From: Deltaproteobacteria bacterium
GTDB lineage: Bacteria > Myxococcota_A > Polyangia > Polyangiales > Polyangiaceae
Assembly: GCA_016875405.1 (NCBI GenBank)
Contig: VGRJ01000013.1
Coordinates: 1-64,000 of the forward strand
Reading direction: 5' to 3'
DNA length: 64,000 nucleotides
The position numbers were made by a program, and so were the translations under genes. The notes below the pieces were generated by a model. That model saw nothing but the letters and a program-made list of their open reading frames with translations, was not told the DNA's origin and made no database searches. The stretch's first letter is position 1, and each line of letters begins with the position of its first letter. Shown piece by piece: positions 2,542 to 25,162 of this stretch.

Positions 2542-5500
2542 CTACTCGGTCTTGATGTTGAGCCCGAGCGTCTTGCGGAGGCGCGCGTAATCCTCGCTCG
2601 CCGCGAACAGCATGAGCTCCTTCAGGCGCTCCTGAGGCGTGAGATCGCCCGGGATTTGCTGCTCGCTCACGATCACCGTCCGAGCGATGGCGAGGTCGCC
2701 GGACAGCAGGAGACCCGCACGCGCCGCGGTCGTCTCGACGGCCTGCGCCCAACGCTTGATGTTGGCGCGCGCCCCCGCCTTCATGAAGTCGCTCACCGCA
2801 ACCTTGAGAGCCTCGCGCTGCATCGGTTCGATGTGCTGCCCGAGGCCTTGCGTCGTCGCTTGCACCTGATTGGCGTACTCGGGCGGAGCGGGGAGCTGCG
2901 CCACGAGCCGCACCGCCCCGAAGAGCAGCACGGTGAGCTCGGTGACCGTTGGGAAGAGCGTCTTGATGAGGTGCTCCGACCGGTACATCGCGAGGTGCTT
3001 GCCGCAGACGAAGGCCCGCTCGAGCGGAGCCACGCCCTGCAGCGCCACCTGTCCCGCCACCGTCGAGAGAGGCATGTTGGGCACGGCTGTGAGGAGGCCC
3101 GGCTGGTCGGTCCGCGCGTAAAGCTGCGGCGCCTGCAACCCGAGCGCCTTCGCGGCCCAGAAGAAGGTCTTCGCGAGCGGGAGCTGTGAGGTCGCAGGGT
3201 CCTGCCGCAGCTGGTCCGGCAACGCAGGACGCTGATTGCGCGCGGTGAGGTCTGCGAGCTTCGCCTTGAGCGCCGCGGGCGCGACCGCCTCGAAGATCCT
3301 CCCGATGTGAGGGTCCTCATCCTTGTGGAAGAGGTGCTCGGCCCAGAGCGTGCCGTCGAGCATCCCCTGGAGCGGCGCGATGTCCTGCGGCCTCCAGTCT
3401 TCGTAAAAACGCTGCTCCTCTTCGTTCGCGCGCCCCATGAAGGCAAGCACGCCAGCGACGCACCAGGCCGCGTCGTACGACTGCTGCTGCAGGTGGAGCG
3501 TGTAGATCGACCGATAGGCGTCGACGTTGAGCGCGTCCTTCTCGAGCAAGGACTGGTACTGCTCGAGCGCCTTCGAGGCATCACCCGTGTGAACCGCAAG
3601 CTCGGCAAGCATGATCCGGTCCTCAACCGCATCCGGCTTTACATCGAGCGCACCCCGGAACGCCTCCGACGCCTTGTGATAGTCCTGAAGGCGGTCGCGG
3701 TAGATGAGGCCAAGGGCGTGGAAGAGTCCGTACTCGAACTCGGCGTCGCCCTTGCCGCGAACGCGGTGAATCATCTTTCGATACGCACGCTCGAGCTTCG
3801 CCCAGTCGCCGAGCCCTGAGAGGACCTTGTCGATGCGCTGGAACGCGTCGACCAGCTCGGGGTGAAGGTCCAGCGCCTTGTCGAAATGCTCGACCGCGAG
3901 GTACGGCTCCTCGAGCTTGTCACGGAAGACCTGGGCCATCGTGAACATGTACCGCGCACGCCGCTGCGAGTTCGGATCCCCCTCGGCGATGCGCTGCAGC
4001 GTCTGCACCACGTCGTGCCAGCGCTTCGTCTTCTGATACAGGGTCAGAAGCCGATGCTGCAGCTGATGGTCCTCGGGCCTGATCGCGACCGCCTGCTCCA
4101 TCGCGGCGAGCGCCTGCACGGCATCTCCAACGCGGCCATCCCATAGGTCGGAGAGCTCGAGGTAAAGGTTGAAGCGCTCCTCACCGTCGAAGACGTTGTC
4201 GATGATGAGCTGTCGATACGCACACGACTGAGCCCAATCGTCCTCGGCGGCGTGAATCGAGGCCAGCGCCTCGAGGGTTGCGCGGTGGCTCGGCTCGAGC
4301 TGGAGCGCCTTCTCGAAGTTGTTGATCGCTTGCCGCGCCTGGCCTTGCTCTCGCTTGACGCAACCGAGCTTGTAGAGGACCTCGGCGCGCAGCGTCATCT
4401 CGTCGTCCGAGAGCGCCGTGAGGACCTTCTGGTAGTTCGTCAGCGCCCCCGCCCAATCGCGGACGAGGTAGTTGGCATCACCGAGGCCGCGAATGGCGTC
4501 CCGATTCGTGATGTCCCCACGCTGAGCGGCCGCGAACGCGCGCAACGCCTCGGCTCCCTTTCCGAGCTCAAGCTCGACGCGCCCGTGCAAGAGGAAGAGC
4601 TCGACCTGAAGCTCACGCTCCTTCGAAGGCGCCTTCTTCTCGAGCAAGTCCGTGAGCGGCTCCGCCTCGGCAAACGCCTTCCGTTCGACGTAAGCACGCG
4701 CGAGCGGCAACGCTGCGTCTTCGTTGTCGGGATCGATCTGATTCGCAAGCTGGTAGGACTGCAGGCCCGCCTCGGGCTGCTCCATCATCTCGCCGCGAAT
4801 GCGTCCCAACTCGACGAGCAGCTTCGCCCGCAGTCGCGGGGACTCGGTGTATTGCTGCTCGGTCTCGAGGTAACGCGTCGCGTGGTACCAGTCTGCCTCG
4901 CTCACCGCGATGGCGCGCATCGCAGCAAGCGTGGGCAAGTGGTACGGGTTCAGGTCGAGGGCCTGCTCGAAGCGAGCGCGGGCCTGGGTTCGATCACCGA
5001 GCTTCTCTTCGAGCTGCCGACCAATCCGGTAGAAGGCCTCGACTCGCTGGGAACCGTCTGTCGTGAGCTCCGCGACGCGAACCATGCAATCGATTGCATT
5101 CGCCGGATCGTCCATGCGCTCGTAGAGCTTGGCGAGGGACTCGAGCGCACCAATCTGGTGCGGGTCCATGTCGATGATCGCGATGTACGCGTCCATGGCG
5201 CGGACATGATCCTGCAAGTGATCCGCGTGCACCTGCCCTTGCCAGGTGAGGAGCTGGATCTTCTTCTGCCGGTCGGCCACCATCTGTACGAAGCGATCAA
5301 GGCAAGCGATGAGCTCGTGCCACTGCTGCTGCTTCTGGTAGCAACGCGCGAGAGCCTCGAACGCGGGGATGTTCGTCGGATCGATGTCAACGACCTGCTC
5401 GAGTCGCACGGCCGCGAGATCGGGCTTGCGGAACTCCTCCTCCTGAAGGGAGGCGATCTGCATGAGCACGTCGGCTCGCTCGCGCTCCGTGCTCGGAACG

Positions 5501-8500
5501 TCGAGGTGCATCTCGAGCACCTCGAGCATGTCCGCCCACCGACGAGTGGCGGTGAACACGCGCTCGAGTCCGCGAATGGCCTGCGCGTTGGCCGCGTCGT
5601 GCTCGAGGACGCTTCGATAAAGCGCAACCGCCTTCTCTGGACTGCCGAGCGTCCCCTCGAAGAGCGCACCGACGCGCATGCGCGTGTCGCTCACCTTCTC
5701 GGGGTCCTTGAGCGCCTTCAGCTTCTTCTCGAGGACCGCCACGAGATCGTGGGTCTGGCCCCTCGACTCGTAGACGCGCTCGAGCGCGTCGAGCGCCGGG
5801 AGGTAGGTTGGGTCAGCCTCGACCGCGCGCTCGAACCGAGCCACGCCCTGCTCCGGCTGTCCCGCGAATTTCTCTAGGAGGTCGCCGACGTCCGTCAGGA
5901 TCGCGGCACGATCGGTGTCGCGCGTCGCGAAGGCGAGCGCCTCCTCGAGCCGCTGCCCAGCCCCACGCCAATCACCCTGCTTCCGCAGGTAGCTCGCGGC
6001 CTGCCGACGCACCTGGACGTTGTTCGGCTCGAGCTCCTGCACGCGGGCGTAGAACGGCTGCGCGTAGTCCTGCCGATCGAGGTTCTCGCCGTACCACTTC
6101 GCGAGCCGCAGACAGAGCGACACCTGAAGTCGCCGATCGGTCGCCTGATCGAGCAGACCGGTCGCCGTCTGAATGAGGTTCGGCCAGCGCTTCGTCGTCG
6201 CCGTCAGCGCCTCGAGCCGCGCAACGGTCTCGTCATCCATCACGTCGAGCGCGAACGCCGTCTCGAGCGAATCATAGGCCTGACCGAGATCGCTCAGTCG
6301 GTCCTCGGAGACGCGCGCGACCTTCCGAAGAAGCGATGTCTGCTCGCTCACATCCTCACGCGTCTCGACGCGGGCCACGTAGAGCTCGACGAGCGACTCC
6401 CATCGCTCCGCCGTCTTGTGTAGGCGTTCGAGCGCGGCGTAGGCGACGTCATTGGCGGGGTCGAGCTGGAGGACGGCCTCGTAGGCGGTCGTCGCCCCAT
6501 CGGCATCGCCGACCCGGTCTGACCAGATCTCCGCGACGCCGAGGTACTCGCCGAGCTGCTCTTGCACCGAGCCAAGAGCACGCGCACGACTCGACTTCAG
6601 CTCGGCCACATCGCGCCAAGCGCCGTCCGCCCGAAGCAATGACTCGAGCTGCGCCATCGCGTCGAAGTCCCGAGGATCCACCTCGAGGAACCTTCGCCAC
6701 GCGTCGATCGCCTCGCGACGCTGCGACACATCGAGCTGGTGGAGCGTCGCGAGCTCCCGGTAGAGCGCGAGGAGGTGCTCCGCGGGAAGCACCTGTGCGG
6801 CACGGTCCGCGATCTGATGCAGCGACGCGAGAAGCTCCGTCGAATTTCCGCGCGACTCGTGAGGGACCTCGCCGTGATAGCGACGACGCGTGATCTCCGA
6901 GATCGCGAAGAGGGCGTCGAGGTTCGCAAAGTCGAACTCGAGCACGCGCGCGTAGTCATCGAGCGCCAAATCGTCTCGACGAAGCTGTGACGAATAGAGG
7001 CGCGCACGACGCAGCAGCACGGCAACGTGCTCACGCTCGTCGAAGACGTTCGCGAGGTGGCGCTCGAGTACGTCGGCGAGCTCCGCCCACTGGCTCGTCT
7101 GCTCGTAGAGCTCGCTCAGCGCGCCCAGCGCCTCGCCGTCCTCACCCTTGAGCTCGAGGACGCGACGCCAGAGCTCGATCGCCTTGCGCAGATCGCCGAG
7201 TCCGCCGCCGACGATGCGAGCCATTTTTGCCGTGAGCTCGCCCTTCTCGAAGTCACCGCCAGCGTTCGCAAGCTGACACTCGTATACCCCGTAGAGCTCG
7301 GGCCATCGCTGCGCCTGCCCATAGATGCGCTCGAGCGCCGTCTGACCATTCTCGTTCTGGGGGTCGAGCTCCTCGACAATGACACGATAGACGCGGATCG
7401 CGTCCTCGTAGTGGCGCGGGTCGTGCGGCGCGAGGTGAACCTCGTAGAGCTCACCGAGCCTGCCGAGGAACTCGATCTTCGCGAACGCATCCTCGACGGT
7501 CTCCACGCGCTGCTCGAGGACCGCCGCGAGCGGCGCGGCGTGACCATGAGCGGTGTACAGACGATCGAGGTTCTCGAGGCAGTCGAGCTCGAGCGGCACC
7601 ACGGAGAGCACGTAGGCGTACGTCTCGACCGCCCGCTGCAGGTCGGCGAGCTCCTCTTCGAACACACGGGCGAGCCGCTTGCCGAGCACCTGTTGCAGCG
7701 CTGGCTCCGTGCGCTGCGCGAGCACGTCGGCGTAGGCGTTCGCGAGGTGCTCCCAGCCCCCCTCGACCATTCCAGCAAGGCGCTCGAGCTCCGCGAGGAC
7801 GCGCTCGTCCGAGGGTGCCTCTGCGAGCGCTCGGATGTAGACCGCGAGCGCAGCCCCGGGGACTCCCACGCGCTGCTCGTGAAGCTCGGCAAGGCGGTGG
7901 AACTGCAGGAGGCGCTCGGCCGGGTCGGAGGTGTGCGCGAGGACCGCCTCGAAGACGCTGGCGAGGTAATCGAACTGACCCGTCGCGTCGTAGTGGGGCT
8001 CGAGGATCGCCGCAATTCGCAGCTGCTCGTACCCCGCGTTGAAGAGGCCCTCGAGCGCCCCGAGAGCAGCCTCGTGATTCGGATCGTCGGAGAGGATCTC
8101 ACCGAAGGTATCTACGGCCAAACCGACGTCGCCGAGCCGGGACTGCTGGACGTGAGCTAGTCGAAGCTTGAACGTGAGCGCGTCCGCGGTACCGGCGGCC
8201 GCCTCTCGCGCGAGGATGGCTGCCAGGGCCGGCCAACGCTCCGTGAGCTCGTAGAGCCTGTCGAGCGCTGCGGTCGCCTGCGCGTTGTCTTGATCCCGCT
8301 CGAGCACCGCTTCGTAGCGATTGATCGCGTGATCCCAGCTCTCGAGCTGCTCCTCGTAGATGCGAGCAAGCCGTAGCGCGAGCTCGACAAAGCGAGCCGG
8401 CTCCTCGGCCGGTAGAGCCGCGAGCTGACGACCGTAAAGTGCAGCGAGCTCCGCCCAGCGACTCGCGACCGAGGCCAAGCGCTCGTAGTGCGCAAGGAGG

Positions 8501-11500
8501 TCGTCGCTCCCTGCATCGATGGCGATCGCACGAGAGTACGTATCGAACGCTGCGCCGTGATCGCCAATGGCGTCTTCATGGATCTGCGCCACCCGCGTGA
8601 GTAGCTCGATCCGCGCGTATGCGTCGTCGGCGCGCGCTATCTGAACCTCGAGCACCGCAACGAGGCGCGGCCAATCGCCCATCGACTGGTAGAGCGGCTC
8701 GAGGATCTGAGCCGCGACCACGGGCTCCTGGGCACCTCGGGAAAGCGCGTCGAGCGCACTCAGCGTCGGACCGTGGCTCGGATCGCGACCGACGAGGTCG
8801 CGGTAGAGGTCGAGGGCGCGGACCACGTCGTCGAGCCGCTTCTCGTAGATCTCGGCGATTCGGAACTGGTACGCGCTCGCCTCTCGGGGATCCGCCGCGA
8901 GCTCGGCCTGCCGCTGCAAGACGTTGAGGAGCTCCGGCCAATCCTGCGCCTCTTGATACAGCGCGTCGAGACGACCGAGCGCATCGAGATCGTCTGGGTC
9001 GAGCTCGAGGATTCGCTGGTAGGTGTCGATGGCGTTTCGAACGTCCCCCAGCTCACGCTCGTAGACGGCGGCGGACTGGTAAAGAACACGCTTCCGCTCT
9101 ACCGGCTCGAAGAGGAGCTCGGCCCGCTTCGCGAGGACGGCGAGGAGGTCCTGCCAGCGCTCGAGACCCAAAAAGAGCCTGGTCAGGACGTCGAGGGAGC
9201 GGAGATCGTCGGCGTCGAGCTCGAGGACCCTGCGGTAAACCGCGATCGCAGCGTCGATGCGTCCGAGCACCTCCTCCTCGAGCGCGGCGGCCTCGTAGAG
9301 TGCCGCCTTCTGGAGCTCGAGGTTCGTGAGGAGCGCGGCGCGCTGTTGCAGGGCAACGGAGAGCTCCTCGTTTCGATCGCTTTGCTGGAAGATGAACTCC
9401 AGTGCCTCGACCGCTGAGATCTGGGTGGGGTCGAGCTCGAGGATTCGGCGATAGGTCGCGACGGCACGGTCCGTCGCACCAAGCTGGTGCTGCAAGATCG
9501 AGGCGCTGGTCGCGAGCAACGCGATTGCGAGGTCCTTGTCCGCTTGCTTCGCAGCCTGTCCTTCGTAGACCGCCGTGAGATCCGCGAAGCGTCGCGTTGC
9601 CCCAGCGAGACGCTGCAGGCCCTCTTGAATGAGGGGTGCCCCCGGCTCGAACTCGAGGGCTCGAACCAACACGTCGAACGCCGCGCTCGGATCCGACGCA
9701 GCGTCCTCGTAGAGCTGTGCCATCTCGAGTAGAAGCTCGACCGCCCGCGCCGGATCCTCCGCGCGACGAACCTGGATCTCGTAGACCCCGACGAGCTTCG
9801 CGTAGTTGCCTGCGGCGCGGTACAGAGGCCCGAGCGTCTCGGCGACCTCGATCTCGAGCTCCGGACGGGCTCCGAGCCCTTCGAGAGCGGCGAGGGCGCC
9901 CTCGTGGTTTGGGCGACGTTCGAGGATCTGCCGGTAGGTCTCGACCGCCGCAGGGACAAGGCCCAGCTTCATCTCTTGCAGCTTGCCGAGCCGCAACATC
10001 AACGAGATCTCGAAATCCTCGGTCTCGGCAGCTTTGATCTGCTGCTCGATGTTGCCCGCGAGCTCGGCGTTCCGCTCCTGGCGCTCATAGAGCCGGTCGA
10101 GCGCCCGCAGCGCAACCTGGCTACGATCGTCGAAGGCAAGTATCTCCAGGTAGGCGCCGATCGCGTTGTCGGGCTGTCCGAGCTGCGCGTCGTAGATCGT
10201 CGCGACCTGCGTCAGGAGGGTCTCGCGGTCACCGTCCTTTTGCGCCAACTCGAGTCGGCGGCGTAGCACCCCGATGACATCGTTGCCCCGCTCGTGATTC
10301 GTGAAGAGGAGCTCGAGCGCGTCGAGGGCCTCGGAGTCCGTAGGGTCGAGGTCCAGCGTCTTCTCGAAGCTCTTCGCCGCGTCGTCGACCGCACCGAGCT
10401 GCTCCTGAATCCCCGCGAGTCGGAACCAGTAGGTGCGTGCGAGCGCGGCCTCGGTGACCGCAGACGCGACCTCGCTGTAGATCTGAGCGAGAGCCGTCCA
10501 TCGATCGCCGCTCTGCGCGAAACGCCGCACCTCCGCGTGAATGTCTTCGCCGTCCGGCTGCTCGACAAGCGCACGAGCGGCGGCTGCGAAGGCAGCCGCG
10601 TCGTCCCTCAGATGATCCCCGGCGACGGCAGCGATGCGTCGCAGCATGCCGACTCGCCGTGACGCGTCCGTCTCGCCATGAACGAGCTTCTGTAGGACCG
10701 ACACGAGCTTGGCGTGGTCGGCTCGCGCCTCGTAGACATCCGCGAGGACCTTGGCGACCTCGTGCCCGAGGTCCGCGTGGTCGACGAGACGCTCGAGCGC
10801 CTCGCGCGCGCGCACCTCGTCCGGCTCGATGACCAGCACCTCACGGTACGATTCAACAGCCCCGCCGGGATCTTCGAGGTGCTTCTCCAGCGCTTCACCA
10901 AGCCGCACCTTGAGATCGACGACCTGACCTTCGTCAAGGTCGCCCTCGAGTCGCCGACGCACGACGCCGACGTATTCGGACCACTCGCCACGTGCGAAGT
11001 ACAGGCGGTCAAGGGCCTCGAGAGCATCGCGGTCGGAGCCATTCAGCTCGAGAATCTGCAACAAGCTCTCAATCGCAGACTCTGGCTGCCCGAGCTCCGT
11101 CTCCTGCATCGTCGCGATGCCGCGAAGGACGCGCGCCTGGGCCTCCGGGGTACCTGCGAACTGCCGCTGCTTCTCGTAGACCTCGAGCAGCTCGGCGTGT
11201 CGCTTCGTCTCGCGATACAGGCGCTCCAACGCCTCGAGCGCTTGGAGGTTGTTGGGATCCAGCTCATAGACGGCTCGGTACTGAATGAGAGCATCGTCGA
11301 TCGAGCCGACCTCCTCGAGCAGGACCCGCCCGAGGCGCAGACGCAAGGCGACAGCATCCTCTTGCGACAGTAGCCCCTCGAGCGCGTCGCGATAGGCTGC
11401 AACGAGCGGCGCCCAATCCTTCGTCGCGCGCGCAACTCGCTCGGCGCTGTCGCCCGACTCGAGACGCCGCGACAACGCGAAGGCGCGCAGGTACCGCGCG

Positions 11501-14091
11501 AGCGCGGCGTCCGACGTCTTCAGCTTGGTCTCGTAGATCTCGCCCAGCTCATCGAGGAGCGCGACCTGCTCTGACGCGTCCTCCGCGTGAGCAAGCTTGA
11601 CCTCGAGGACCTGCGCGAGACCCTTTGGGTTGTTCGTCTCGCGATAAATCGGCACGAGCGCCACGGCTGCCGCCAGATGATTCTCATCGAGCGTAAGGAC
11701 CTTCTCGTAGGCCTTCGCTGCGCGGTCGGACTTTTCCTTCTTGCGGAGCCAGAGATCCGCGATCTTGAGGAGGAGGCCGACCTTCGCCCCGTCATCCTTC
11801 TCCTTCTGCTCCTGAGCCTCGATCGCTCGAATGAGCTCGTCCCACTTCCCGCTCTCCTCGAAGAGAACTTCGAGGTCGTCCCAGCGCTGGAGTGTGAGGA
11901 GACGCTTCTTGAGGTTCTCCTGAGCACGCCGGTCATCGGGCGTCAGCTCGAGCACGCGACGCCATGCCTCGGCGGCCCCGGCGTCGTCGTTGAGCTTCTC
12001 ACCCTGGATCTGGGCCAGCTTCTGCAGCTGATTGAGCTTCTCCTTCGCGTCCGTAAGAGAGTCCACGAGGTCGAGGAGGACAGCCGCGAGCTCCTGGAAC
12101 TCACGGGAGCGCTCGTAGAACGTCGCGAGGGAATCGAGGGCCTCGAGGTTCCCCGGCTCGAGTGCGCGAACCTGATTCCACAGGTCGATGCATAGCTGCG
12201 GCTTCTTGACCTTATCGGTCGCGAGCTTCGCCATTTCGGCGTAGCGCTTCGCGCGCTGAGCGACAGGCAACAGGTCTGCCTCTCCGCGCATCAGCTCGAT
12301 GAGCTTCTCCCAGTCGCGCCGCTTCTCGTAATACTCGCGGAGGTGGCTCCGCGCCGGGTTGTGGGTCGGGTCCGCGGCGAGGATTTGTTCGAAGCACTTC
12401 GCCGCCTCGGACGCGTTCGAGAACTTGAGGAAGATATCCGCCGCTTCCGCGTAGGCCCCGACCTTCTTCGTGACGTCGACGTAGGCCTCCGCGAGCTTGA
12501 CGAGCGTCTTGACGTGGTCGTGACTGCGCTTCGCTTTTTGCTGCTTGTCGGCCTCATCGAGGAGCTTCGCGATCAGCGCCGCGTCCTCGTCGGCGGGTGC
12601 GCTCTTCCCGGGCGACTCGACGGTCGCGGCCTTCGCGGGCTCCTCGGCCTTCGCGGGCTCCTCGGCCTTCGCGGGCTCCTCGGCCTTCGCGGGCTCCTCG
12701 GCCAACGCGGGCTCCTCGGCCTTCGCGGGCTCCTCGGCCTTCGCGGGCTCCTCGACCTTCGCGGGCTCCTCGGCCTTCGCGGGCTCCTCGGCGGCAACCC
12801 CCTCGCTCGAATCGAGCCCGCGCGTTGCCTCCAACCCGTCTAAGACGCTCTCGTCCTCGGCAACCGTCTCGAGGTCGACGTCGCCATCGAGCGTCATCAC
12901 CTCCTCAAGGTCCACCTCGGTCTCGTCGACCTTCGACGCTCTCGCCCCCTCATTCTCTTCCGAGACGCTCTTGCCAAGCTGGCGCTCGAAAGCCGCGAGC
13001 TCGGGATGGTCCGGCTGCGACGAAGCCAGCCGCGTAAACCACCTCCGCGCCGTCATCACGTCACCAAGCTGACGCCACGCGGTCTTTCCTGCCTCCGCGA
13101 GCACAAAGTCCGGACACGACGCCTTGGCCTCATCCCCCGCGGCGGCGAGAAGCGCCAACACGGCGCTCCAGTCGCCTCCCTGCTCGCCGACCTGATCGCG
13201 CAAGTAGACGTAGGAGACCGCGTCGCTGGGATTTGCGCGGAAGGCGTCCCCTAGCAGCGCCACGCCACGCTCGGAGTCCTGGTGCTGGGCCCAGCGCGCG
13301 CCGAACACGAACGCGAGGCGTCCGCGCTCGTCGTCACCCGTGCCGCTCAGGATCTCGCGCTGCTTCGAGGCGAGCTTCGCCGCCCTGACAGAGGCGTCGG
13401 GGTCATCCTCCGCCGCGCTGATGAACAACCCCTCGTAGAGCGCAGCGGCGCTCAAGTTGGCCGGGTCGGCCTGGTACGCGTCGAGCAGCAGCTCCTCGGT
13501 CTGGTCCGCGCTCCCGTAGCGACGCGCGAGCCGGGCCGCGCGCAGCAGGAGGCGCACGCGAGACGAGAGGTCCGACTGGTCGAACGACTCCGCGAGCAGC
13601 TCGTCGACGCGGTCTTGGAACGCGCCCTCGTCGACCGTTAGGTCCTCGAGGGCCACCATTGCCTCGTAGGCAAAATCATCGCTCTCCGACGCCTGCTGGT
13701 AAGCCTCGAGCGCGGCATCGTACTGACCGAGATCCTGAAGCGCATCGCCGAGGTCGAGGAGGATGCGGCCCCGCAGCGCGTCCGAAGCCGTCTCGAGGCT
13801 CCGGCGCAAGACGGTCTCGACCATCTTGATCCGACCGAGGCCGAGATAGATGTCGCGAGCCTCGAGCAGAGGCTCAACCGCCTCCGGCTTCGATTTCCAA
13901 GCGGCCTGGAAGTAGCGAAGCGCTCGCGCCCCCTGAAGCAGCTGACCGTTGAGAACCCGCCCGAGTCGCAACAAATAATCCGACCTCGCAGCGACGTCTT
14001 GCTCGGCATCCGCCGCAGCTTCGAGCGCCTCCGCGAGCGCGGCCCAATCCAGCGTGTTCTCGAGTTGTTCCAGTCGTTGCTTCAGGTCCAT
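2542..14091 (-). CDS. gltI: Giant 3849-aa TPR-repeat protein without signal peptide; candidate GltI/AgmK-like gliding motility protein
   Basis: Single ORF of 11.55 kb with dozens of TPR-like modules (...[21 protein letters not shown]..); size, cytoplasmic prediction and position in a glt-like cluster. Confidence 0.75.
12629..12790 (-). repeat. 18-bp in-frame minisatellite, about 9 copies, encoding (EEPAKA)n linker within the giant TPR protein
   Basis: Repeated unit gccttcgcgggctcctcg (plus strand); protein [36 protein letters not shown]... Confidence 0.95.
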
Positions 14092-15337: not shown

Positions 15338-15352
15338 CTTCGGCGTCGCGTG

Positions 15353-15447
15353 CTCAGCCTGGGCTGGACGACTCAGCTTGGACTGAACGACTCAGCTTGG
15401 ACTGAACGACTCAGCTTGGACTGAACGACTCAGCTTGGGCTGAACGA
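15353..15447. repeat. 19-bp tandem repeat (cgactcagcttggactgaa, about 4-5 copies) overlapping the stop codon of the FHA/AgmX-PglI gene
   Basis: Repeated ...gactcagcttggactgaac... read directly; last copy contains the codons and TGA of ...SFSPS*. Confidence 0.9.
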
Positions 15448-17430
15448 GATCGGGTACGTCACTCGAACGACGCCGCCTTCCGGCGTCGGGAAGGCGAGCC
15501 CGTAGAAGGCGCGCGTGACGCAGCTCACGACGCCCGAGTCAGGGAGCCCGCCACCGCCGCCGACGTTCGACACGCTGCCGTCGCGACCAATCACGAACGT
15601 GACGGCCACCGTACCCTGAAGGTTGGGGTTGTTGCGAAGGCCGTTCTCGTAGCAGAGACGGAAGCGACCAAAGTTTTGGCGAACAATGCGCTGGATGACT
15701 TCGGGCGGCAGGCGACCGCTCACGCTCGTCGCGCCCATTCGCACCTGCGGAGGCTTCGCCCGGTGCGACCCGGAGAGCCGACCGTGGCCTGAGCCGAATC
15801 CCTGCCCAGTGCCCGTGCCGGCACCATGCCCGATCGTGCCGATGCTCCCGAGGCCGATACCTTCACCTCGACCACCGCCACCTTCACCGATGCCGGTAAG
15901 GCCAAGGCCGCCGGCGCCGAAGGACTCGCCAATCGCATCGCCCCACATGTTGCCGCGAGCGCTCAGCGGGTCATTGCCGAGAGAGTCATCGCGTCCCCAC
16001 GGCGCAGTCGGCGCGTCCGGATCGCCGCCCGCACCCGAATTGAGGAGGCCGATCATACCGAACTCGGCAGCGTCACGAAGCGCCGCCTGCCGGGCGATAT
16101 GGGGGTCGGTGTTGCTCTCGGGTCCAGCGACACCGTACCGGTTGCCGCTCTGCTTCGAGTTGGGGTTGCCCATCGACCCCTCCTCGCCCTTCGCGCGAGT
16201 TCCCGTGCCGCCCTCCTTGTTGTCGGCGTTCGACTCCGCCACTTCCTCGGCGGGCTTCTCCTCGAGCTCCTTCTCCGCGGCCGACTCGAGGTAGTGCGAG
16301 ATGAGGAAGCGCTGCTCGTCGTTGACCTCATCCGCCGAGGTCGAGTTGAGATCGGGAGTGAACATCGCGGTCGCGGCGAGGAAGCCGCCGATGCCGACGC
16401 CAGCCCCGAGGACGTAGAGGATCGCAGATCCCGTGATGAACGCCGCAAGCGACGCCGCCGCGACGACCTTCTTGCCGCTCGCGACACCGCTGATCTCGAA
16501 CACGAGATCCCGCACCTCGAGGTGCACGACGGTCCCGTTGCCGATCGAGATCCGTGCGTTCGCAGAGACAGGCGCCTTCGGAAGGTTTGCACCCGCCTCT
16601 ACCCAGCCCGTCGCCGTCGGCGGAACGACCACCGAACCGGACTCGATGAGGGTGAGGCGCGACGAGCCGAGCTTCTCGGCGGGGAGCGGGAAATCGACGG
16701 TGCCGCCCTTCCCCTCGGCTTCGCCCACGGTGAACGAACGGTTGGTCGAAATGTGTGAGACGTGCAGGAGATTTCGGCCCCAGAGCACGCGGATCTCGAA
16801 CGCAGAAGCCGCAGACTCCACTTCGTCGGAGCGAACCGGTGCCCCGCCCTTCAGCAGCTGGTACTCGTACGAGCCCTCCGCCGCATTCGCAAAGCGGTCG
16901 CCACCGTGTCCATATCCGTGTGCGCCGTGCGCGCTACGCGCAGGCGACGACGCGAATGGATTCGGTACCGTCGCCGCAGGAGTAGCGGCGAAGGGGTTGC
17001 TCATCGCGGGCGGCGGGGCCGCGGCAAACGGATTGCTCGCGACTGGCGGAGCCGCTGCGGCGAACGGGTTCGAAGCTTGGCTCGCAGGAGCCGCGGGGGC
17101 TGCCTCGACCTGCGAGGCAACCGGCTGCACGCTCTCGAGAACGAGCAGGGTCGCGCCGACTTGCACCTGGTCCCCCTGCTGGAGCTTGCACTTGTTCACT
17201 CGAGTGCCGTTCACCAGCGTGCCCGAGTCGCTGCCGAGGTCGATGAGGGTCACCTCGTCCTGGACCTCGATCACCGCATGGACCCGCCCAGCCTGCTCGT
17301 CATCAACCCGCAGGTGGTTCTTCGGATCCTTGCCGACCTTCATCACGCTCTCCGCCACCGTCTCGCGGCGGATAAGCTGCTCACCCTGATAAAACGCGAA
17401 CGTGAGCGCGAACTTCTGCTTGCCTTCCAT
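15430..17430 (-). CDS. gltG: FHA domain protein with TM segment and AgmX/PglI C-terminal (TonB-like) domain; candidate GltG/PglI
   Basis: N-terminal FHA (GKDPKNHLRVDDEQAGRVHAVIE..DLGSDSGTLVNGTRV), NPFA-repeat linker, central TM, C-terminal RIVRQNFGRFRLCYENGLRNNPNLQGTVAVTFVIGRDGSV. Confidence 0.85.
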   Translation of the reverse strand: MEGKQKFALTFAFYQGEQLIRRETVAESVMKVGKDPKNHLRVDDEQAGRVHAVIEVQDEVTLIDLGSDSGTLVNGTRVNKCKLQQGDQVQVGATLLVLESVQPVASQVEAAPAAPASQASNPFAAAAPPVASNPFAAAPPPAMSNPFAATPAATVPNPFASSPARSAHGAHGYGHGGDRFANAAEGSYEYQLLKGGAPVRSDEVESAASAFEIRVLWGRNLLHVSHISTNRSFTVGEAEGKGGTVDFPLPAEKLGSSRLTLIESGSVVVPPTATGWVEAGANLPKAPVSANARISIGNGTVVHLEVRDLVFEISGVASGKKVVAAASLAAFITGSAILYVLGAGVGIGGFLAATAMFTPDLNSTSADEVNDEQRFLISHYLESAAEKELEEKPAEEVAESNADNKEGGTGTRAKGEEGSMGNPNSKQSGNRYGVAGPESNTDPHIARQAALRDAAEFGMIGLLNSGAGGDPDAPTAPWGRDDSLGNDPLSARGNMWGDAIGESFGAGGLGLTGIGEGGGGRGEGIGLGSIGTIGHGAGTGTGQGFGSGHGRLSGSHRAKPPQVRMGATSVSGRLPPEVIQRIVRQNFGRFRLCYENGLRNNPNLQGTVAVTFVIGRDGSVSNVGGGGGLPDSGVVSCVTRAFYGLAFPTPEGGVVRVTYPISFSPS

Positions 17431-17451
17431 GGCGATACTCCAGCCGATTCG

Positions 17452-17724
17452 TCAGAGTTGTTCGACGGACTTCAGCATCTCGGGGACGAACGACGTGCGC
17501 GGGCGGATGAGCGTCCGTCGCACCGGCCCGGGACGCACCCGGATCGTCGCATCGGTCGGGCCAAAGCCGCCCGCCGAGAGCGGATCGTCCGCGAACTCGT
17601 AGCCGTACCCTTCGCCGTCCCCGGCGTCAGAGGACTTCACGCCCTGCGCGCTGGCCGCCGACGAGACGAGGAAGGCGCCACCCGCGAGGGTCAACGCAAG
17701 CGCGAAACGTGCAACTGAATTCAT
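17452..17724 (-). CDS. Small exported protein of unknown function (90 aa) within the glt-like cluster
   Basis: Signal peptide MNSVARFALALTLAGGAFLVSSAASAQG; start 40 nt downstream of a strong promoter-like element. Confidence 0.75.
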   Translation of the reverse strand: MNSVARFALALTLAGGAFLVSSAASAQGVKSSDAGDGEGYGYEFADDPLSAGGFGPTDATIRVRPGPVRRTLIRPRTSFVPEMLKSVEQL

Positions 17725-17725
17725 G

Positions 17726-17772: not shown

Positions 17773-17794
17773 CTGGAGCCATCCGTCCGGTCAA
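17766..17794 (-). promoter_or_regulatory. Sigma70-like promoter TTGACC-N17-TACAAT for the small protein and downstream genes
   Basis: Minus strand ttgacc at 17794-17789, tacaat at 17771-17766. Confidence 0.65.
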
Positions 17795-17883
17795 TCCTTC
17801 GCTTCCCACGCTGACGTGACGTGGGCAGCGACGCGATACGCGGAGTAGGACATCGGCGACCAGCTCCTGGTTCCCAAAATGTT

Positions 17884-19404
17884 TTAGTTCGGAGCTGGGG
17901 CCGGGGCCGCCGGGTCAGCGGGCGTGGCGGCCGAACCTCCCGCCGGGGCTGCGGAACTTTCCGCAGGGGCCGCTGCCGCATCCGGAGCGGGCGCAGGCGG
18001 CGGGTTCTTCGACGCGGCCGCGTTCTCCTTGATGACCGCGACGATGTCGTCGATGTCCTTCATGCGCTCCTGAGCGCGCTTGATGGCACTGGCGTATTCG
18101 TCCTTTCCAGTCGCCTTCTCGATGAACTGCTTCAGCAGGTTCTTCGACTCCTGGTAGACCGGCTCAGCCTTCGCACCTTCGAGGGTCTTGGTCTTGAACT
18201 CCTCGGTCAGGATCGCTTCGTTGTAGTAGGTCTCGGGTCGAGCACCGTCGAGCCTGCGCGCCTCGGCGAGCTCCTTCTGTGCCTTGGCGAGCATCGCGTC
18301 GAAGTTCACGTCCGTGATGAGACCACGGTACGCAAGCGCCAAGCCGAGGTGCGCCTCGTAGTCGCTCGGGCGAAGGCCAATGGCCGCAATGTACGCCTTC
18401 GCCGCCTCCTCGAACCCGCGGAACTGAAGGTTGACGGCCGCGTAGTTCATGTGCGCCTCGAAAAACTTCGAGTCCAGCTGGCGAGCCTTCCCGAAGGACT
18501 GCGCGGCCTGCGAGAGATCCCCAAGCTCGGACGAGATCAGACCCATCGTGTTGTAGACGGGCGCGTAATTCGGGTTCTTGCGGATGGCCTGCGAACACAC
18601 GAGCTGAGCGAGCTCGAGGGCCTGTGAGTCCGCCTTGCGCTCGTCCTCACCAGCCGTCTTGACGGCCGCACGGCGCGCCCACTTCGGGAGCTTCGCAGCC
18701 TGCTGCGCTTTTTTCTTCGCGCTCTCGAGGTAGTACACCGCGAGCTGATTGAAGGCAGGCATGAAGCCATCGTTGATGGCGAGCGAGCGCTGCAGGTTCA
18801 ACTTCGCGCGAGCGAAATCGTCATCGCCGTCATCATCCTTCACTGCGTTGTCGCGCATCATCTGCAGCATCGCGAGGTGAACGAGTGCTTCCTCGTTCTT
18901 AAAGTCGGCGTCCCCAATCGCCTGCTGCATCTGGTTGATCGCGTCGTCGACCTCCTTCTGGTTCGACATGACGAACTTGTAGAGCGCCACCTGAACGCGC
19001 GCGCGGTGAAACTTAGGATTTTTCGAGAGGATCTCCTCGAACACCTCCTTTGCCTTCGCGTCGTTCTTGCAGCGCTGATACGAGACGCCGGCATTGTAGC
19101 GAGCCTCGAAGAATTCCCCGCCTGAGAGTTGGCGGGAGGCGTCCTCGAAGCGCTTCGCGGCCGACTCGCACGTCGCATCCGTCCAGTCGCCCGCAGCGTC
19201 ATGAGACGCGAGGTCGATGACCGCCTTCTTGAAGTCCTCAGCGGCTTCCTTGTTGATGACCTTGCCGTCCTGCGTCTTCACGACGGACCCCGTGACAGGA
19301 TCCTTGACGACGTCCTGCTGCCCGGCGCCGGCGCCACCGCACGCGACGAGCAGGGAGGACGCGAGCAGGGCGACGAGAGATGACTTGATGTTTTTCATGG
19401 CCAT
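17884..19404 (-). CDS. gltE: TPR-repeat lipoprotein (506 aa); candidate GltE/AglT
   Basis: MAMKNIKSSLVALLASSLLVACGG lipobox, TPR repeats, Ala/Pro-rich tail; position between GltD-like and GltG-like genes. Confidence 0.75.
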   Translation of the reverse strand: MAMKNIKSSLVALLASSLLVACGGAGAGQQDVVKDPVTGSVVKTQDGKVINKEAAEDFKKAVIDLASHDAAGDWTDATCESAAKRFEDASRQLSGGEFFEARYNAGVSYQRCKNDAKAKEVFEEILSKNPKFHRARVQVALYKFVMSNQKEVDDAINQMQQAIGDADFKNEEALVHLAMLQMMRDNAVKDDDGDDDFARAKLNLQRSLAINDGFMPAFNQLAVYYLESAKKKAQQAAKLPKWARRAAVKTAGEDERKADSQALELAQLVCSQAIRKNPNYAPVYNTMGLISSELGDLSQAAQSFGKARQLDSKFFEAHMNYAAVNLQFRGFEEAAKAYIAAIGLRPSDYEAHLGLALAYRGLITDVNFDAMLAKAQKELAEARRLDGARPETYYNEAILTEEFKTKTLEGAKAEPVYQESKNLLKQFIEKATGKDEYASAIKRAQERMKDIDDIVAVIKENAAASKNPPPAPAPDAAAAPAESSAAPAGGSAATPADPAAPAPAPN

Positions 19405-19422
19405 GGATTCCTCGATGCCGCC

Positions 19423-22400
19423 TCAGTTCTGGCCCTTCGGCTCCGCGTCCGCCTTGGGCTCCGCGGCCTTCTTGTCTCCCGAGTCGCTCTCCTCGCGCTC
19501 GCGCGAGTCGAGCACGATCGGCTGTCCGTCGTAGTTGAGAGCCTGCGGGCGCTCGTCGAGCGGCGAGTTCACGCGCGTCGGCGCTCCTCGGAATTCATCG
19601 ATGAGGTGGAACTCCCGACCGTAGTTCTTCGAGAGCCACTTCTCGCAGGAGCGCGAGGACGAGTCGAAATACTGGTACTTGACGGAGTAGTCGAGGCAGG
19701 TGGAATACGCCTGCTTCGCCTGGGCCTTGTACCCCTTGCTCGCGTCCTCGAGGCCCGCCTGGTACTGCGCGCGCAAATCCTGCCAGAAGGTCGGCGGATC
19801 GAGCCCAGGGATTTCGCCGGGCTGGTCCCACTTCTTCGGGTACGGAGCCTTGAGGAAGTCCGAGACGAAGCCACCCCACATGGCACCCACCGCGGCGCCG
19901 GACTTGATGACCCACACCGGCGGGGGCGCGGGCTTCAAGTTGACGATCTTGAAATACTCGCTCTGGGCGGCCTTCACCGCTTCGTCCTTCTTCTTGTACC
20001 AATCGGAGACCTTGTTCTTGATGAAGTCGTCGATCTCCTTGCGGTCTTCGCCGGCGCCCTTGTACTCGGGGAACTTGATCTTGTCGGCTTCGACCTTCTT
20101 CCGCTCCGCGAAGTAGAAGAGGGCCTCCCCCACCGCCGTCAAGGTCTTACCCACGCGGCGATCGCGCTGCGACTGCGACCCACCGATCGCGTCGAGTTGC
20201 TTCATCGCGGCCGCAGGGTCGTTCCAGTTGTCGCGAACGAGCGCGAAGTTCTGGTCGGCCTTCCCCTCCTGCCGCATCGCCTGGTAGACGCGCCCGAGCA
20301 GCGCGTGCGCCTGGAGCTTGACGTCGAACGTCGCCTGCTGATCGATCTTTCCGATCTGCCCGGACAACGCCTTCTCGGCGTTCTTCCAGTCCTGACGTTC
20401 GGCGTAGTAGGCGCCGATGGCAAACGCGATCTGCGCGGCCTTGCCCGGATTTTTGCCACCGAACGACGTCGCGAACTTGCCGGCGTCTTCAATGGCCTTC
20501 TCCTGCTGGCCAAGCCCGAGTCGTAGGACGACCGCGTCGCTGAGCGCGTTGGCGGCCTTCTCCTGGAGCTCCTTGTCGCTCGACGTTGCCTGCTCGGCCG
20601 CGAAGCGCTCGTACCACTCGGACGCATCCTGGTAGACCGCGATCGCCTGATAATTGCCGCCGATTTCGTAGACCGCGAGCTTTGCTGCCTGACTCGACTT
20701 GAGAGCGGGCGTACCGATGAGGATCGTGCGGAGCTTGATGGCCTTGGCGATTAGGCGCGCGGCCTGAAACGCTCGGGCGCCATTGTAGAGGATGAGGTCG
20801 TTCTTCTCGCAGGCGGGCTTGCCTTCCTTGCAAGCGTCCTCACCGTACTTCTTCCAGAGGTCGTAGTAGAGGTTGGCCGCCTCTTCGTAGAGCTTGATGC
20901 TTTCGGCGGTGCCCGAATCGGCCTTCTTCACGAGCGCCTCGGCGCGCTTCGCTTGGATGTCGCGCTGGATGCGGAAGAGGACCGAGCACTGCTCGTCATT
21001 GTCCTTCTTCTGCTTCTCATCGGAGCAGAAGAACTCGATGTACTTCGGGACGTCCTTCGCCATGTCGAGCAGGCAGTCCGGATTCGACTCAGCGCCCGCC
21101 ATGGTCCCAAGCACGTTGAGGGCATCGAGCGAGAGCTGCGCGGCGTAGAGACCAGCCTCGAGCCTCGGGTGGTTCATCGCGATGTCGCGGAAGGCCTCGG
21201 CGGCCTCCTCCCAGTGCTGCGCCTCGTAATAGGTGCGGGCCCGCGCGTACTTCACCTCGACGTACTGCTCGAGGGCTTCCGCGTCGTTCTCGGGCGGCTT
21301 GATGTAGCAGATGTAACGGTCGAAGGCGGTGACCATGCCCCGCTGCGAAGCCGTCAGCTCCTTCGGCTTCATCTTCGCGTTGTCGTCGTCCTTGGCCTTG
21401 CCCTTGCCCTTGCCCTTGGCCTTTGAATCGTCGAGGTGTCCCCCGGTCTGGCGGTGCGAGCCGTCGGCGTGGGTCTTCGCGTAGATGTTCTGGTAGCAAA
21501 GCACCGAGGCGAACGCAGCCTCGGCAGCGTTGGGGCCGTTCGGGTCGTCCGCCACGACGGCGTCGAATGCGGGGCCGCATTCCTCCCACTTCTTCTGAAA
21601 GTAGAGGAGGTCCGCCATCGCGTAACGAATCTTGGAAATCGAAGGCCAGTCTTCCTTGACGATGCGCGGGAACGTGAAGGCCCTGAACTGGTCGCCCGTG
21701 AAGTTCTCGACGACCATCTTGTAGAGCTTGGAGCTCAGGTCCATCGTCTTGGCGTCGCCCGTTCCACGGACGCCGCCGGAGCCGACCGCCTCGAGGTGCC
21801 AAGCCATCGCGGTCTCTGACAGCAGCGAGGCCGTGGTGTTCGCGCACTCGAGCTTGGTCTGGTTGCCGTGACTCGCCTTCTGGAAGTCGAGGTAGGTGGT
21901 GAGCTGCTTGTTCAGCTCCTCGATGATCGCGGGCTTGTTGGCGCTCTTCGCCGCCATGACCGCCTGGCTGATCTGAGCTTGGTAGAAGCAGTGCATCTCG
22001 CCGCGGTTGCGCTTCTTAAGGTCGTTGTAGAGGACGACGGCCTCGTCGTAGTGACCGGTGTCGATCAGGTTCAGGCCGAGGTCCTCCATCATCTTGAAGG
22101 TCGTCTCGCTGTTGACGCCCGAGTCTCCAGACAGCGGCCGGAAAAAGTCGTACGCCTTGCCAGGGTCACCCTTCAACGCATAGACCGGGATGACGTCACG
22201 ACGAGCGCTGGTCGCGAGTCCCTTGGCGTTGGGCAGCTGCGGGTACTTGTCCGCGAACTCGATGACGCTCTTGAATTGCTGGATCGCGGTGCCGTAGTCG
22301 CCCTGGTTCCAGAACACGTAACCGAGCTTGTAGGCGGCGTAGCCCCAGAGCTTGTTCTCCGGCGGGTCGTACTTCAAAACCTCCTTGTAGAAGTTTTGAG

Positions 22401-23232
22401 CGAACGGCCACTTGCTGGGGTCGCCCTGTGCCTCCTGGAAGTAGAGCTCGCCGAACGCGAGGAAAGCGTTTGGCACGAAGCGCGACTGCTTCCAGTTCTC
22501 GGTGAGCTCGAGGTAGGCGGTGCGGGCGTTGTCGAGGTCACCCGCCTGTTCGTACTCGTAGGCGAGGTAGTAGAGGACCTCGTCGATGCAACCCTTCTGC
22601 CCCTTCGGCGCCTGAGGATCCTGGCACCACTTCGGGTACTGGTCCTTGAGGCGCTTGTAGTAGTCGATCGCGTTCTTCCGCGCGGCCTTGATGACCTGCA
22701 TCGCCTTCTGCGCGGTCTCTTTCGCCTCGGAGGCCTGCTTCGCATCCTTCGAGCGGAGGTCTTGGGCCTTGACCTCGGACTCGACCTTGTCGCGGAACGC
22801 CGAGGCCTCGAGCTCGACGTAGCCCTCCGCGAGCCGGCGCATCAGCGTCGGGCGGTCCTTATCGTTCTTGGGGGTCGACTTGAAGAGCCGCTCGACGTTC
22901 GCGATCTCGGTCAGGAGCAACTTGCGAACCTTCGGCTTCAATCGAGCCGAGCGCTCGTCACGCTGCGCGGTCTTCGTGATGTCGCTCGGATTGACGGGCT
23001 TCAGCTCCGAGACGCGGTCCTTCTTCTTGATCGACTCGGGCGCCGTCGAGAAGCTCACTTGAGGCTTCTTGGCAACGTTCGTCTGGAACTTGCCGCCGGG
23101 GCATGTCGCCAGCGTGTCCTTGGCCTTCTGCGATACGCACTGTTCTCCGGCCTCGGAGGCGTCGGCGAGAAGCAGCGAAGCCGTGAGCGCGGCGAAGGTG
23201 GCGACGAAGCCAAATCGATTGGGTCGGTTCAT
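19423..23232 (-). CDS. gltD: Large exported TPR-repeat protein (1269 aa); candidate GltD/AgmU
   Basis: Signal peptide (FVATFAALTASLLLADASEAGEQ), many TPR-like repeats, 18 bp upstream of the GltE-like lipoprotein. Confidence 0.75.
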   Translation of the reverse strand: MNRPNRFGFVATFAALTASLLLADASEAGEQCVSQKAKDTLATCPGGKFQTNVAKKPQVSFSTAPESIKKKDRVSELKPVNPSDITKTAQRDERSARLKPKVRKLLLTEIANVERLFKSTPKNDKDRPTLMRRLAEGYVELEASAFRDKVESEVKAQDLRSKDAKQASEAKETAQKAMQVIKAARKNAIDYYKRLKDQYPKWCQDPQAPKGQKGCIDEVLYYLAYEYEQAGDLDNARTAYLELTENWKQSRFVPNAFLAFGELYFQEAQGDPSKWPFAQNFYKEVLKYDPPENKLWGYAAYKLGYVFWNQGDYGTAIQQFKSVIEFADKYPQLPNAKGLATSARRDVIPVYALKGDPGKAYDFFRPLSGDSGVNSETTFKMMEDLGLNLIDTGHYDEAVVLYNDLKKRNRGEMHCFYQAQISQAVMAAKSANKPAIIEELNKQLTTYLDFQKASHGNQTKLECANTTASLLSETAMAWHLEAVGSGGVRGTGDAKTMDLSSKLYKMVVENFTGDQFRAFTFPRIVKEDWPSISKIRYAMADLLYFQKKWEECGPAFDAVVADDPNGPNAAEAAFASVLCYQNIYAKTHADGSHRQTGGHLDDSKAKGKGKGKAKDDDNAKMKPKELTASQRGMVTAFDRYICYIKPPENDAEALEQYVEVKYARARTYYEAQHWEEAAEAFRDIAMNHPRLEAGLYAAQLSLDALNVLGTMAGAESNPDCLLDMAKDVPKYIEFFCSDEKQKKDNDEQCSVLFRIQRDIQAKRAEALVKKADSGTAESIKLYEEAANLYYDLWKKYGEDACKEGKPACEKNDLILYNGARAFQAARLIAKAIKLRTILIGTPALKSSQAAKLAVYEIGGNYQAIAVYQDASEWYERFAAEQATSSDKELQEKAANALSDAVVLRLGLGQQEKAIEDAGKFATSFGGKNPGKAAQIAFAIGAYYAERQDWKNAEKALSGQIGKIDQQATFDVKLQAHALLGRVYQAMRQEGKADQNFALVRDNWNDPAAAMKQLDAIGGSQSQRDRRVGKTLTAVGEALFYFAERKKVEADKIKFPEYKGAGEDRKEIDDFIKNKVSDWYKKKDEAVKAAQSEYFKIVNLKPAPPPVWVIKSGAAVGAMWGGFVSDFLKAPYPKKWDQPGEIPGLDPPTFWQDLRAQYQAGLEDASKGYKAQAKQAYSTCLDYSVKYQYFDSSSRSCEKWLSKNYGREFHLIDEFRGAPTRVNSPLDERPQALNYDGQPIVLDSREREESDSGDKKAAEPKADAEPKGQN

Positions 23233-23353
23233 GGTTACCCTTAAAGAGTGCAGCAGAAACGTGGGCCGGTCAGAGTCGAAGCGGAGCGGACGCCGTCATC
23301 GGTGAGGCTAGGCGGCGCGTGTCGCGAAGGAGCGAAAAGTGAACGCGGCCTGC

Positions 23354-25162
23354 TCAGTTGCCCGAGGCGCCAGCGCCCTTCCCGCTTCCGCACGCAGAGT
23401 TCACGACCTGTCGGTAGAAGCCGAGTTCGTCACGCCAGTACTCGCCATTGAAGGGCCAGATGACGTGCTCCTCATCGGGCGTCACCTGCCCGAACTGGAA
23501 CGCGTCTTCGGCGGACCACTTGCCCGCCTCGATCTCCTCGTCGATCTTCTTCCGCTGGGCGTTCGTGATGTCGACGATGATCTTCTGCGCGCTTCGGAGG
23601 TGATCCTCGAGCTCGGCGATGTTTCGCTTGTAGCGACGACGCGCGAGCTCGCCGGTCTTCCGCATCGCGTTTTGCTTGGCGATGTCGATGTTGTCCTCGA
23701 CCTCGCCGCCGAGGGGGCTGTTGCGGAAGCTCGTCGGCGCGCCCTTGAAGCGCTCGAGCTCGGTGTCCAGGACCTTCACGTACTCGATGTTGCGGAGGAG
23801 CTCGCGGTCACCGAGGGCGTTCTCGACGATCGGAGTGATCGCGGGCGAGAGCTCCCCTTGACCGTCGCGGATCTTCAGGACGAAGTCGTAGAACTTTTGC
23901 TCGCTGCCCTCGCCTTCGAAGCGCTTGAGGACCTGCTTCAGCTCCTTCTCGACCGGCTCGTATCGCTTTTGCAAGCGCGCGACGAGCGAGGTGGCGTCGT
24001 CGTACTGGCAGGTCGTGAAGTAGATGACCGCGCGCACGATGTCCGCCTCGGGATAGAACGAGCGCGGGAAGTACGGCGACTGAATCGTGTGGATGTTGCC
24101 GAGCGCTCGAGGATAGTCGCCCGCCATGAAGTACGCCCACGACTGCTCGAACAGCGTATCGAGCCAATACTCGCTCCCAACGTCGACGAGGTTCCAGTAG
24201 CGAACGGCCGCGTTGAGCTTCTTGTCGTCGATCTTCGGGATGTTGTTCTCGTCGAGGCGAATCGACGCCGAGTAAAACGTCCGCGCGATCGAGAGGTTGG
24301 CGAGGTCCCGCATGCGCTCCTCATCCTCGACGCCCTCGATGCCCCTGTCGAGCGAGGTCAAGATGCGCTGGAACGCACGAACCGCTGGCACCGACTTGCG
24401 CAACTGGACGTAGGATATCCCCATGAAGAACTGGGACTTCACGAAGTACGGGCTCGAGTCCTTGACGTTCGAGAAGAGGTCAATCGCCTCCTGCCACTCG
24501 CGCTTGCGGTACATCGAACGGCCCAGCAGGTAGTTCAACTGAAAGTACAGGTCCCGCTGCTGATCGTTGTCGAAGCGCCCCACCTGCTCCTTCGAGTACT
24601 TGCTGACGGCACCGATGATGTCGGCGGGCTCGGGCAGCTGGGTCGCGAGTTTCGCGAGCCAGAGGAGCGTCTCCTTGAACTTCAGGTGGCTCGGCTTCTC
24701 GGCGATTTTGCGGAAGATGTCGTAGCTCGCCTGGAAGAAGTTGAGGCGGTAGAGCGCGATCGCCAGGTGGTACTCGGCGATCTGCTTGTTGCCGGGGTCA
24801 TCCCCCGTCTCGCCGGAGACGACCTGTCGAAGCAGCAGCGCGGACTCGCCCCAGCGCTCGGCATCGAACAGTTTCTTCGCCTGGGCCGCAGCCTCGGTCA
24901 TGTCGCCCGCCGTCACCGGCTCTTCATCGTTGCCGGACGAGCCGCCCTCGTCATCGAGGTTGATCGGCCTGCTCGACTTCTTGCCCTTCGAGTCCTTACC
25001 GACTTTCGAGTCCCTGCTCGGCTTCTCCGAAGCCTTCCCGCCCTTCTTCGACTGGGCGTAGGCGACGCCGACGTCTCCCAGGTCCGTCGGGGCGACGATA
25101 CCGACGCCGACGGTCAGAGCGATGAGCCAACGGGCGATCGGAGAAACGAGTTTGTTGGGCAT
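23354..25162 (-). CDS. Exported TPR-repeat protein (about 603 aa); possible GltC-like component
   Basis: MPNKLVSPIARWLIALTVGVGIVAPTDLGDVGVAYAQS signal peptide; TPR repeats; GAAGGA Shine-Dalgarno upstream; first gene of the minus-strand run. Confidence 0.7.
   Translation of the reverse strand: MPNKLVSPIARWLIALTVGVGIVAPTDLGDVGVAYAQSKKGGKASEKPSRDSKVGKDSKGKKSSRPINLDDEGGSSGNDEEPVTAGDMTEAAAQAKKLFDAERWGESALLLRQVVSGETGDDPGNKQIAEYHLAIALYRLNFFQASYDIFRKIAEKPSHLKFKETLLWLAKLATQLPEPADIIGAVSKYSKEQVGRFDNDQQRDLYFQLNYLLGRSMYRKREWQEAIDLFSNVKDSSPYFVKSQFFMGISYVQLRKSVPAVRAFQRILTSLDRGIEGVEDEERMRDLANLSIARTFYSASIRLDENNIPKIDDKKLNAAVRYWNLVDVGSEYWLDTLFEQSWAYFMAGDYPRALGNIHTIQSPYFPRSFYPEADIVRAVIYFTTCQYDDATSLVARLQKRYEPVEKELKQVLKRFEGEGSEQKFYDFVLKIRDGQGELSPAITPIVENALGDRELLRNIEYVKVLDTELERFKGAPTSFRNSPLGGEVEDNIDIAKQNAMRKTGELARRRYKRNIAELEDHLRSAQKIIVDITNAQRKKIDEEIEAGKWSAEDAFQFGQVTPDEEHVIWPFNGEYWRDELGFYRQVVNSACGSGKGAGASGN

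Follow-up and report, generated by a model that had tools for sequence, protein, structure and literature searches.

To our knowledge, nearly all that is known of the gliding machine comes from Myxococcus xanthus. Its genes are found there in separate clusters, namely G1 (gltD-J), G2 (gltK-B-A-C) and M1 (aglRQS) (PMC3169522). GltA, GltB and GltC form a subcomplex of the machine (PMC4488436), and GltI together with GltG connects the motor to MreB (PMC13104615). The Nfs sporulation machine, encoded by nfsA-H, has no GltI (PMC3858216). Related core complexes were described in bacteria that are not known to glide, and bacteria with AglRQS and GltA-G were suggested as potential gliders (PMC3169522). 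Here we analyse a run of seven glt-type genes on the minus strand of a 64,000-nucleotide stretch of DNA (contig C13, positions 1-64000; hereafter the window), which belongs to a host genome of 5.02 Mb in 218 contigs that is 99% complete. The locus is a variant of the known family, a cousin of the Myxococcus gliding machine. We consider it rather probable that it specifies a Polyangia-type Glt complex ('Polyangia-type' is a working label) with an AglRQS-type motor encoded elsewhere and with surface gliding as its most likely job.

The locus resembles the Agl-Glt system of M. xanthus in having homologues of GltA/GltB, GltC, GltD, GltE, GltG and GltI and a candidate GltF, in the relative order D-E-F-G-I, a recognisable forkhead-associated (FHA) motif in GltG, and, on other contigs of the genome, MglBA and an AglRQS-type motor. 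It differs in that gltC heads the gltD-I run, the gltA/B-like genes lie close by and not in a separate G2, a tetratricopeptide repeat (TPR) lipoprotein stands where GltH would be expected, GltJ was not found in one piece in the genome, and the proteins form a separate clade. The contiguous genes C-D-E-F-G and the types of protein they encode are shared with Nfs (PMC3858216), from which the locus differs by the presence of GltI, by an FHA motif that is eroded in Nfs-like GltG, and again by its separate clade. The core glt genes are those of the core complex (GltC, GltD, GltE, GltG and AglRQS) of Gamma- and Deltaproteobacteria, to which the window cluster adds a putative GltF, GltI, the lipoprotein and the nearby GltA/B-like barrels, with the motor unlinked (PMC3169522). 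The grouping of G1 and G2 genes is like that of the Anaeromyxobacter cluster, compared by its published description (PMC3169522). Metagenome-assembled genomes (MAGs) of Archangium/Myxococcaceae were used in place of M. xanthus throughout, because the contig scan with a 5-sequence GltD alignment returned no Myxococcus isolate; an alignment of 16 GltD sequences had too much divergence for such a scan.

Gene content of the run

The seven open reading frames (ORFs) within 2542-25162 are all present in the order given by the sequence-only reading, which is borne out by their coordinates, by a codon-position G+C pattern typical of coding genes in all seven, and by the conservation of the order across families. 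In the direction of transcription they encode 602 (ATG at 25162), 1269, 506, 90, 666, 318 (ATG at 15134) and 3849 residues, and we name them gltC-gltD-gltE-gltF-gltG-TPR lipoprotein-gltI. The intergenic gaps calculated from the coordinates are 18-295 bp, so the run could form one or two transcription units.

The first gene (23354..25162, frame open to 25210) had been described simply as an exported TPR protein. It is a TPR protein, but not a generic one: residues 106-607 of the open frame match the profile NF033756 (gliding_GltC) with an E-value of 1.9e-74 and 251 bits, making it a GltC-like periplasmic protein. The GltG-like protein (15430..17430, 666 residues) consists of an N-terminal FHA domain, a transmembrane segment and a C-terminal AgmX/PglI domain; it matches NF033760 (gliding_GltG) over residues 9-665 (E 1.1e-76, 259 bits), as well as NF033768 (E 3e-21) and Pfam FHA (E 7e-15), and is the top GltG match genome-wide. 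Both scores lie below the NCBIfam equivalog cut-offs (450 for GltC, 650 for GltG). Use of these cut-offs to discriminate Glt from Nfs was abandoned because almost nothing in the phylum passes; for GltC this is only 1 of 237 genomes.

The scores bear on the possibility that the locus encodes an Nfs-like machine, that is, a motor-driven complex that moves surface glycan in sporulation or coat assembly and does not serve gliding. With NF033756, Archangium-group GltC proteins score 925-948 and Nfs-type GltC proteins 197-229; the values found here, 251 for GltC and 259 for GltG, are near the Nfs-like range of the Archangium group (about 259-285 for GltG) and far from their Glt proteins (>900). The unbroken series from gltC to gltG, as in nfsA-H, points the same way. 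The low scores are, however, probably due to models built on Myxococcus-type sequences, and GltI, the GltG FHA motif and the phylogeny (see below) speak for a different assignment; we regard an Nfs-like machine as quite improbable.

GltD (19423..23232, an exported TPR protein of 1269 residues) is without a match to any GltD profile, yet its whole length can be aligned with that of proteins at the GltD position throughout the phylum, and it is present as a single full-length copy in the host genome. The GltE-like TPR lipoprotein (17884..19404, 506 residues) matches NF033758 (gliding_GltE) below the cut-off (E 7.9e-11), a match driven by the TPRs, and is tied to GltE of Archangium-group genomes via a homologue in locus L067. 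The small exported protein of 90 residues (17452..17724) weakly matches NF033764 (gliding_CglF; E 0.006) across its whole length, and its size, its position and homologues in relatives fit GltF. The names GltE and GltF are thus tentative, with size, position and intermediate homologues standing beside weak profile matches. Homologues of GltC, GltD, GltE and GltG are together in one locus, and GltE is the weakest of the four. Elsewhere in the genome, a divergent core-type cluster is present on contig C53 (L053, 19-10935), with GltC-like (829 residues), GltD-like (1498), GltE-like (507; NF033758, E 1.5e-19) and GltG-like (549) proteins and an ORF of 90 residues.

The giant protein and the FHA domain

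The last gene of the run (2542..14091) encodes a TPR protein of 3849 residues without a signal peptide, with a C-terminal domain of about 330 residues. Since TPR similarity proves little, the last 329 residues, which lie outside the TPRs, were tested alone. In this test the C-terminal end of GltI was hit in four Archangium/Myxococcaceae MAG genomes (E 1.7e-13 at best, with 20% identity) and also in genomes G002 (E 3e-25) and G279 (E 5e-26). The domain could be aligned for 23 sequences and has conserved positions. Judged by its sequence, the giant protein is truly GltI-like, as had been proposed. No match to the C-terminal domain was obtained in Pfam or the PDB, both of which were searched, and this conserved domain is a concrete target for study. 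A GltI paralogue of 1473 residues, 63% identical to GltI of the run over the C-terminal 447 residues, is encoded in the same genome on contig C83 (L052, 4615-9036); at the end of that contig (2-847) there is a second, partial GltG C-terminus that is 62% identical to GltG of the run.

The FHA motif of GltG is intact in the Glt rows of the alignment (GR...SRIH or ARIH...NG) and eroded in the Nfs-like rows (SNLH, without NG). Here it is near-intact; the genus of the window reads GK...GRVH or GRMH, and binding of phosphothreonine may therefore be weakened. An intact GltG FHA motif goes with the presence of GltI, but as a tendency only, because loci L078 and L160 have the intact motif without GltI nearby. 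The tie is also confounded by ancestry, since the Nfs-like rows are one clade. GltI and the near-intact FHA motif, as features of sequence, favour a tie of the locus to Glt rather than to Nfs, which lacks the former (PMC3858216) and has the latter eroded in the Nfs-like loci.

The TPR lipoprotein

The gene between gltG and gltI (14178..15134) encodes a TPR lipoprotein of 318 residues at the place that GltH occupies in Archangium-group Glt loci. Behind the lipobox there is a conserved motif, in which N-x-G stands about 12 positions past the cysteine; in the window protein the conserved stretch after the cysteine reads NRNKQEAVILANKG. Many families keep the lipoprotein between these two genes, and so does genome G002, whose GltD falls in the Glt clade. 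Homologous proteins could be linked by similarity (G002 with the L070 homologue, E 2e-39; window with L070, E 6e-11); as TPR repeats inflate these scores, the argument for homology is based on the position of the gene and on the conserved start of the protein. The presence of the protein at the same place across families, including Glt-clade G002, suggests that it probably predates the arrival of GltH at that place in the Archangium/Myxococcus line. No name for a lipoprotein between gltG and gltI was found in the cited Agl-Glt literature. An identity with M. xanthus MXAN_4864/65 was considered and dropped, as Archangium-group loci have GltH and a Gly/Arg-rich protein there.

Gene order, distribution and phylogeny

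The order C-D-E-F-G-lipoprotein-I is found in most loci that were followed downstream of a gltC-like match. It occurs in family groups f1, f2, f4, f5, f7, f8, f19, f29, f38 and f47, with one gene uncalled in a few; Plesiocystis and Enhygromyxa are named examples. A few loci (f45, f21, f17, f23) are without GltI in reach. In the Archangium group the G1-type order is D-E-F-G-GltH-Gly/Arg-rich protein-GltI-GltJ, and gltB-gltA-gltC are elsewhere. The run is not a product of chance, because the identical order recurs across many family groups.

This recurrence also bears on the idea that the locus is an unrelated TPR run with an FHA protein that came to look like Glt by convergence. TPR and FHA domains occur widely, and profile matches to them are unspecific, but GltC and GltG match over nearly their full length, the C-terminal domain of GltI is not a TPR region, the order is kept across many families, and the only two barrels of the OMP_myx_plus type in the genome are found here. 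We give convergence next to no credence. As far as kinship goes, neither of the two outcomes that the sequence-only reading had named as contrary to it was encountered, namely best hits of the FHA and giant TPR proteins outside the Glt/Agl families, or TPR/FHA runs unrelated to glt as a common feature of non-gliding genomes. The proposal that another myxobacterial lineage has here a Glt-like machine spanning the envelope is upheld by the near-full-length profile matches of GltG and GltC, the GltD alignment, the C-terminal domain of GltI and the gene order.

A rooted tree of concatenated GltC, GltD, GltE and GltG (35 rows, 2566 columns) contains clades of Glt, Nfs-like and Polyangia-type proteins with 99, 100 and 100 support, respectively, in the Shimodaira-Hasegawa-like approximate likelihood ratio test (SH-aLRT). 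Here, 'Nfs-like' denotes Archangium-group loci with an A/B-C-D-E-F-G-H-type order and no GltI, labelled by gene order and not by experiment or M. xanthus nfs sequences. The window falls in the Polyangia-type clade, outside both the Glt and the Nfs-like clades, and the 100 support for each of the Polyangia-type and Nfs-like clades speaks against an Nfs-like machine. A GltD tree of 60 rows splits the same three groups, with weaker support on the Nfs-like and Polyangia-type sides. The clade test on a GltD tree of 31 rows was uninformative because it lacked an outgroup, and any pairing is then trivially one side of a branch. The Glt-type assignment of the sequence-only reading holds as kinship, but the locus is a member of a third clade beside Glt and Nfs-like and is not inside Glt.

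We put forward, tentatively, that Polyangia-type loci form a third branch of the Agl-Glt/Nfs family that diversified separately. The lipoprotein would then be an ancestral subunit, unassigned in M. xanthus, that the Archangium/Myxococcus line lost or exchanged for GltH, and the FHA domain would dock the giant scaffold. Such docking is suggested by the tendency of an intact GltG FHA motif to accompany GltI. A clade that has the platform and the periplasmic parts, without GltH in place or a one-piece GltJ, helps to sort ancestral parts from later additions, and the Polyangia-type cluster is a natural comparison for how a surface transport machine became a motility machine.

The rest of the machine and its likely function

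The cluster had been described as glt/agl-type, but the agl motor is outside it. Two head-to-head R-Q-S motor triplets are present on contig C84, one AglRQS-like and the other closer to a second motor type. The R protein of the former is 41-46% identical to that of the Archangium-group triplet with an R of 245-248 residues, close to the 245 stated for AglR of M. xanthus, and 33-35% identical to the other type. The genes mglB-mglA are on contig C20; a Roadblock-domain protein precedes mglA, and MglA shows 60% identity across 192 residues to the M. xanthus MglA query that was used (E 2e-74).

By analogy with M. xanthus, the GltI-like protein in the cytoplasm and the GltG-like protein in the inner membrane, with its FHA domain inside and its TonB-like domain outside, would form a platform that couples to the proton-driven AglRQS-type motor. 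The additional TPR lipoprotein could, together with the GltC-, GltD- and GltE-like proteins, pass the force across the periplasm to the GltA/GltB-like barrels in the outer membrane, and MglBA would set the polarity. Sequence comparison establishes that the proteins are homologous and of the architecture described, that the genes keep their order, that motor and mglBA genes are present and where the locus branches in the tree; how the complex assembles, transmits force and serves gliding is carried over from M. xanthus (PMC3169522, PMC4488436, PMC13104615), and for this locus gliding and focal adhesions are what we infer.

Several findings weigh against gliding by such a complex. A GltC match (E<=1e-5) is found in 188 of 237 genomes of the phylum (130 of 164 genera), so GltC may serve something broader. 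The rooted tree leaves a three-way fork between the Glt, Nfs-like and Polyangia-type clades and does not join the last to Glt specifically. GltH does not follow gltG, where the TPR lipoprotein is found instead; GltH was not searched for elsewhere in the genome. GltJ is essential in M. xanthus, and genome-wide no match to it was obtained at E<=1e-20. At E<=0.01 several proteins each matched a part of it, chiefly one of 714 residues that has a zinc ribbon and ends in an AgmX/PglI-like region (C11, 168-2309) and one of 462 residues with a zinc ribbon and GYF (C6, 10969-12354). Jointly these two have what GltJ combines in one protein, namely a zinc ribbon, GYF, a transmembrane segment and the AgmX/PglI-like end, on separate genes. 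Finally, a long flagellar gene cluster with MotA/MotB and Flg/Fli/FlhB-type genes, recognised by eye, fills contig C68 (L325), and the host may thus also swim.

The wide distribution, GltJ and GltH not being found whole or in place, and the flagellar cluster lend some weight to a broader transport role. The locus could then be a general machine of the Agl/Glt type and of older origin, serving the envelope or the transport of protein, lipid or polymer, with gliding as one derived use, for which the related core complexes of bacteria not known to glide (PMC3169522) also argue. The putative GltF, GltI, the GltA/GltB-like barrels and mglBA nevertheless exceed the seven-gene core, and it is bacteria with AglRQS and GltA-G that were suggested as potential gliders (PMC3169522). 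We think a general machine of this kind unlikely, though worth serious consideration, and retain a Polyangia-type Glt complex for gliding as the preferred explanation.

Neighbouring genes

The interval 2542-25162 does hold the seven genes, but a related gltA/gltB-like pair is found further out, at 29950-31799 on the plus strand. The first outer-membrane beta-barrel (29950..30915, frame open from 29863) matches TIGR04565 (OMP_myx_plus) with E 1.1e-24, and its paralogue (30912..31799, frame open from 30816) with E 4e-12. Both match the pair directly before gltC in Archangium-group genomes, at the GltB and GltA positions (best E 6e-13 and 1e-10). They are called GltA/GltB-like jointly, without a one-to-one assignment to A and B. 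The pair lies beside ftsY (28543..29781, plus strand; TIGR00064, E 7e-100), which is context and not a component. A block of ftsY, barrel and HEAT genes near gltC is conserved in f1, f2 and f5, usually with both barrels.

A sigma-54 activator-type gene adjoins gltI on the other side (1547..2533, plus strand; PF00158, E 8e-58). Family f1 has homologues that likewise adjoin gltI, and in f7 and f29 homologues lie in its vicinity; at 328 residues the protein is shorter than these (424-567 residues), and it is a possible regulator of the cluster. A predicted barrel-like exported protein (698..1480, minus strand) is conserved near gltI in family f1 only. It was tried as GltH and showed no similarity to GltH at E<=0.01 and no Pfam match; a role as a stand-in for GltH would be speculative.

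Further out in the window, the ORF at 34121-35920 contains many CxxCH heme-binding motifs and is a candidate multiheme cytochrome, and three ORFs at 54076-57297 resemble, by eye, the E1-alpha, E1-beta and E2 subunits of pyruvate dehydrogenase.

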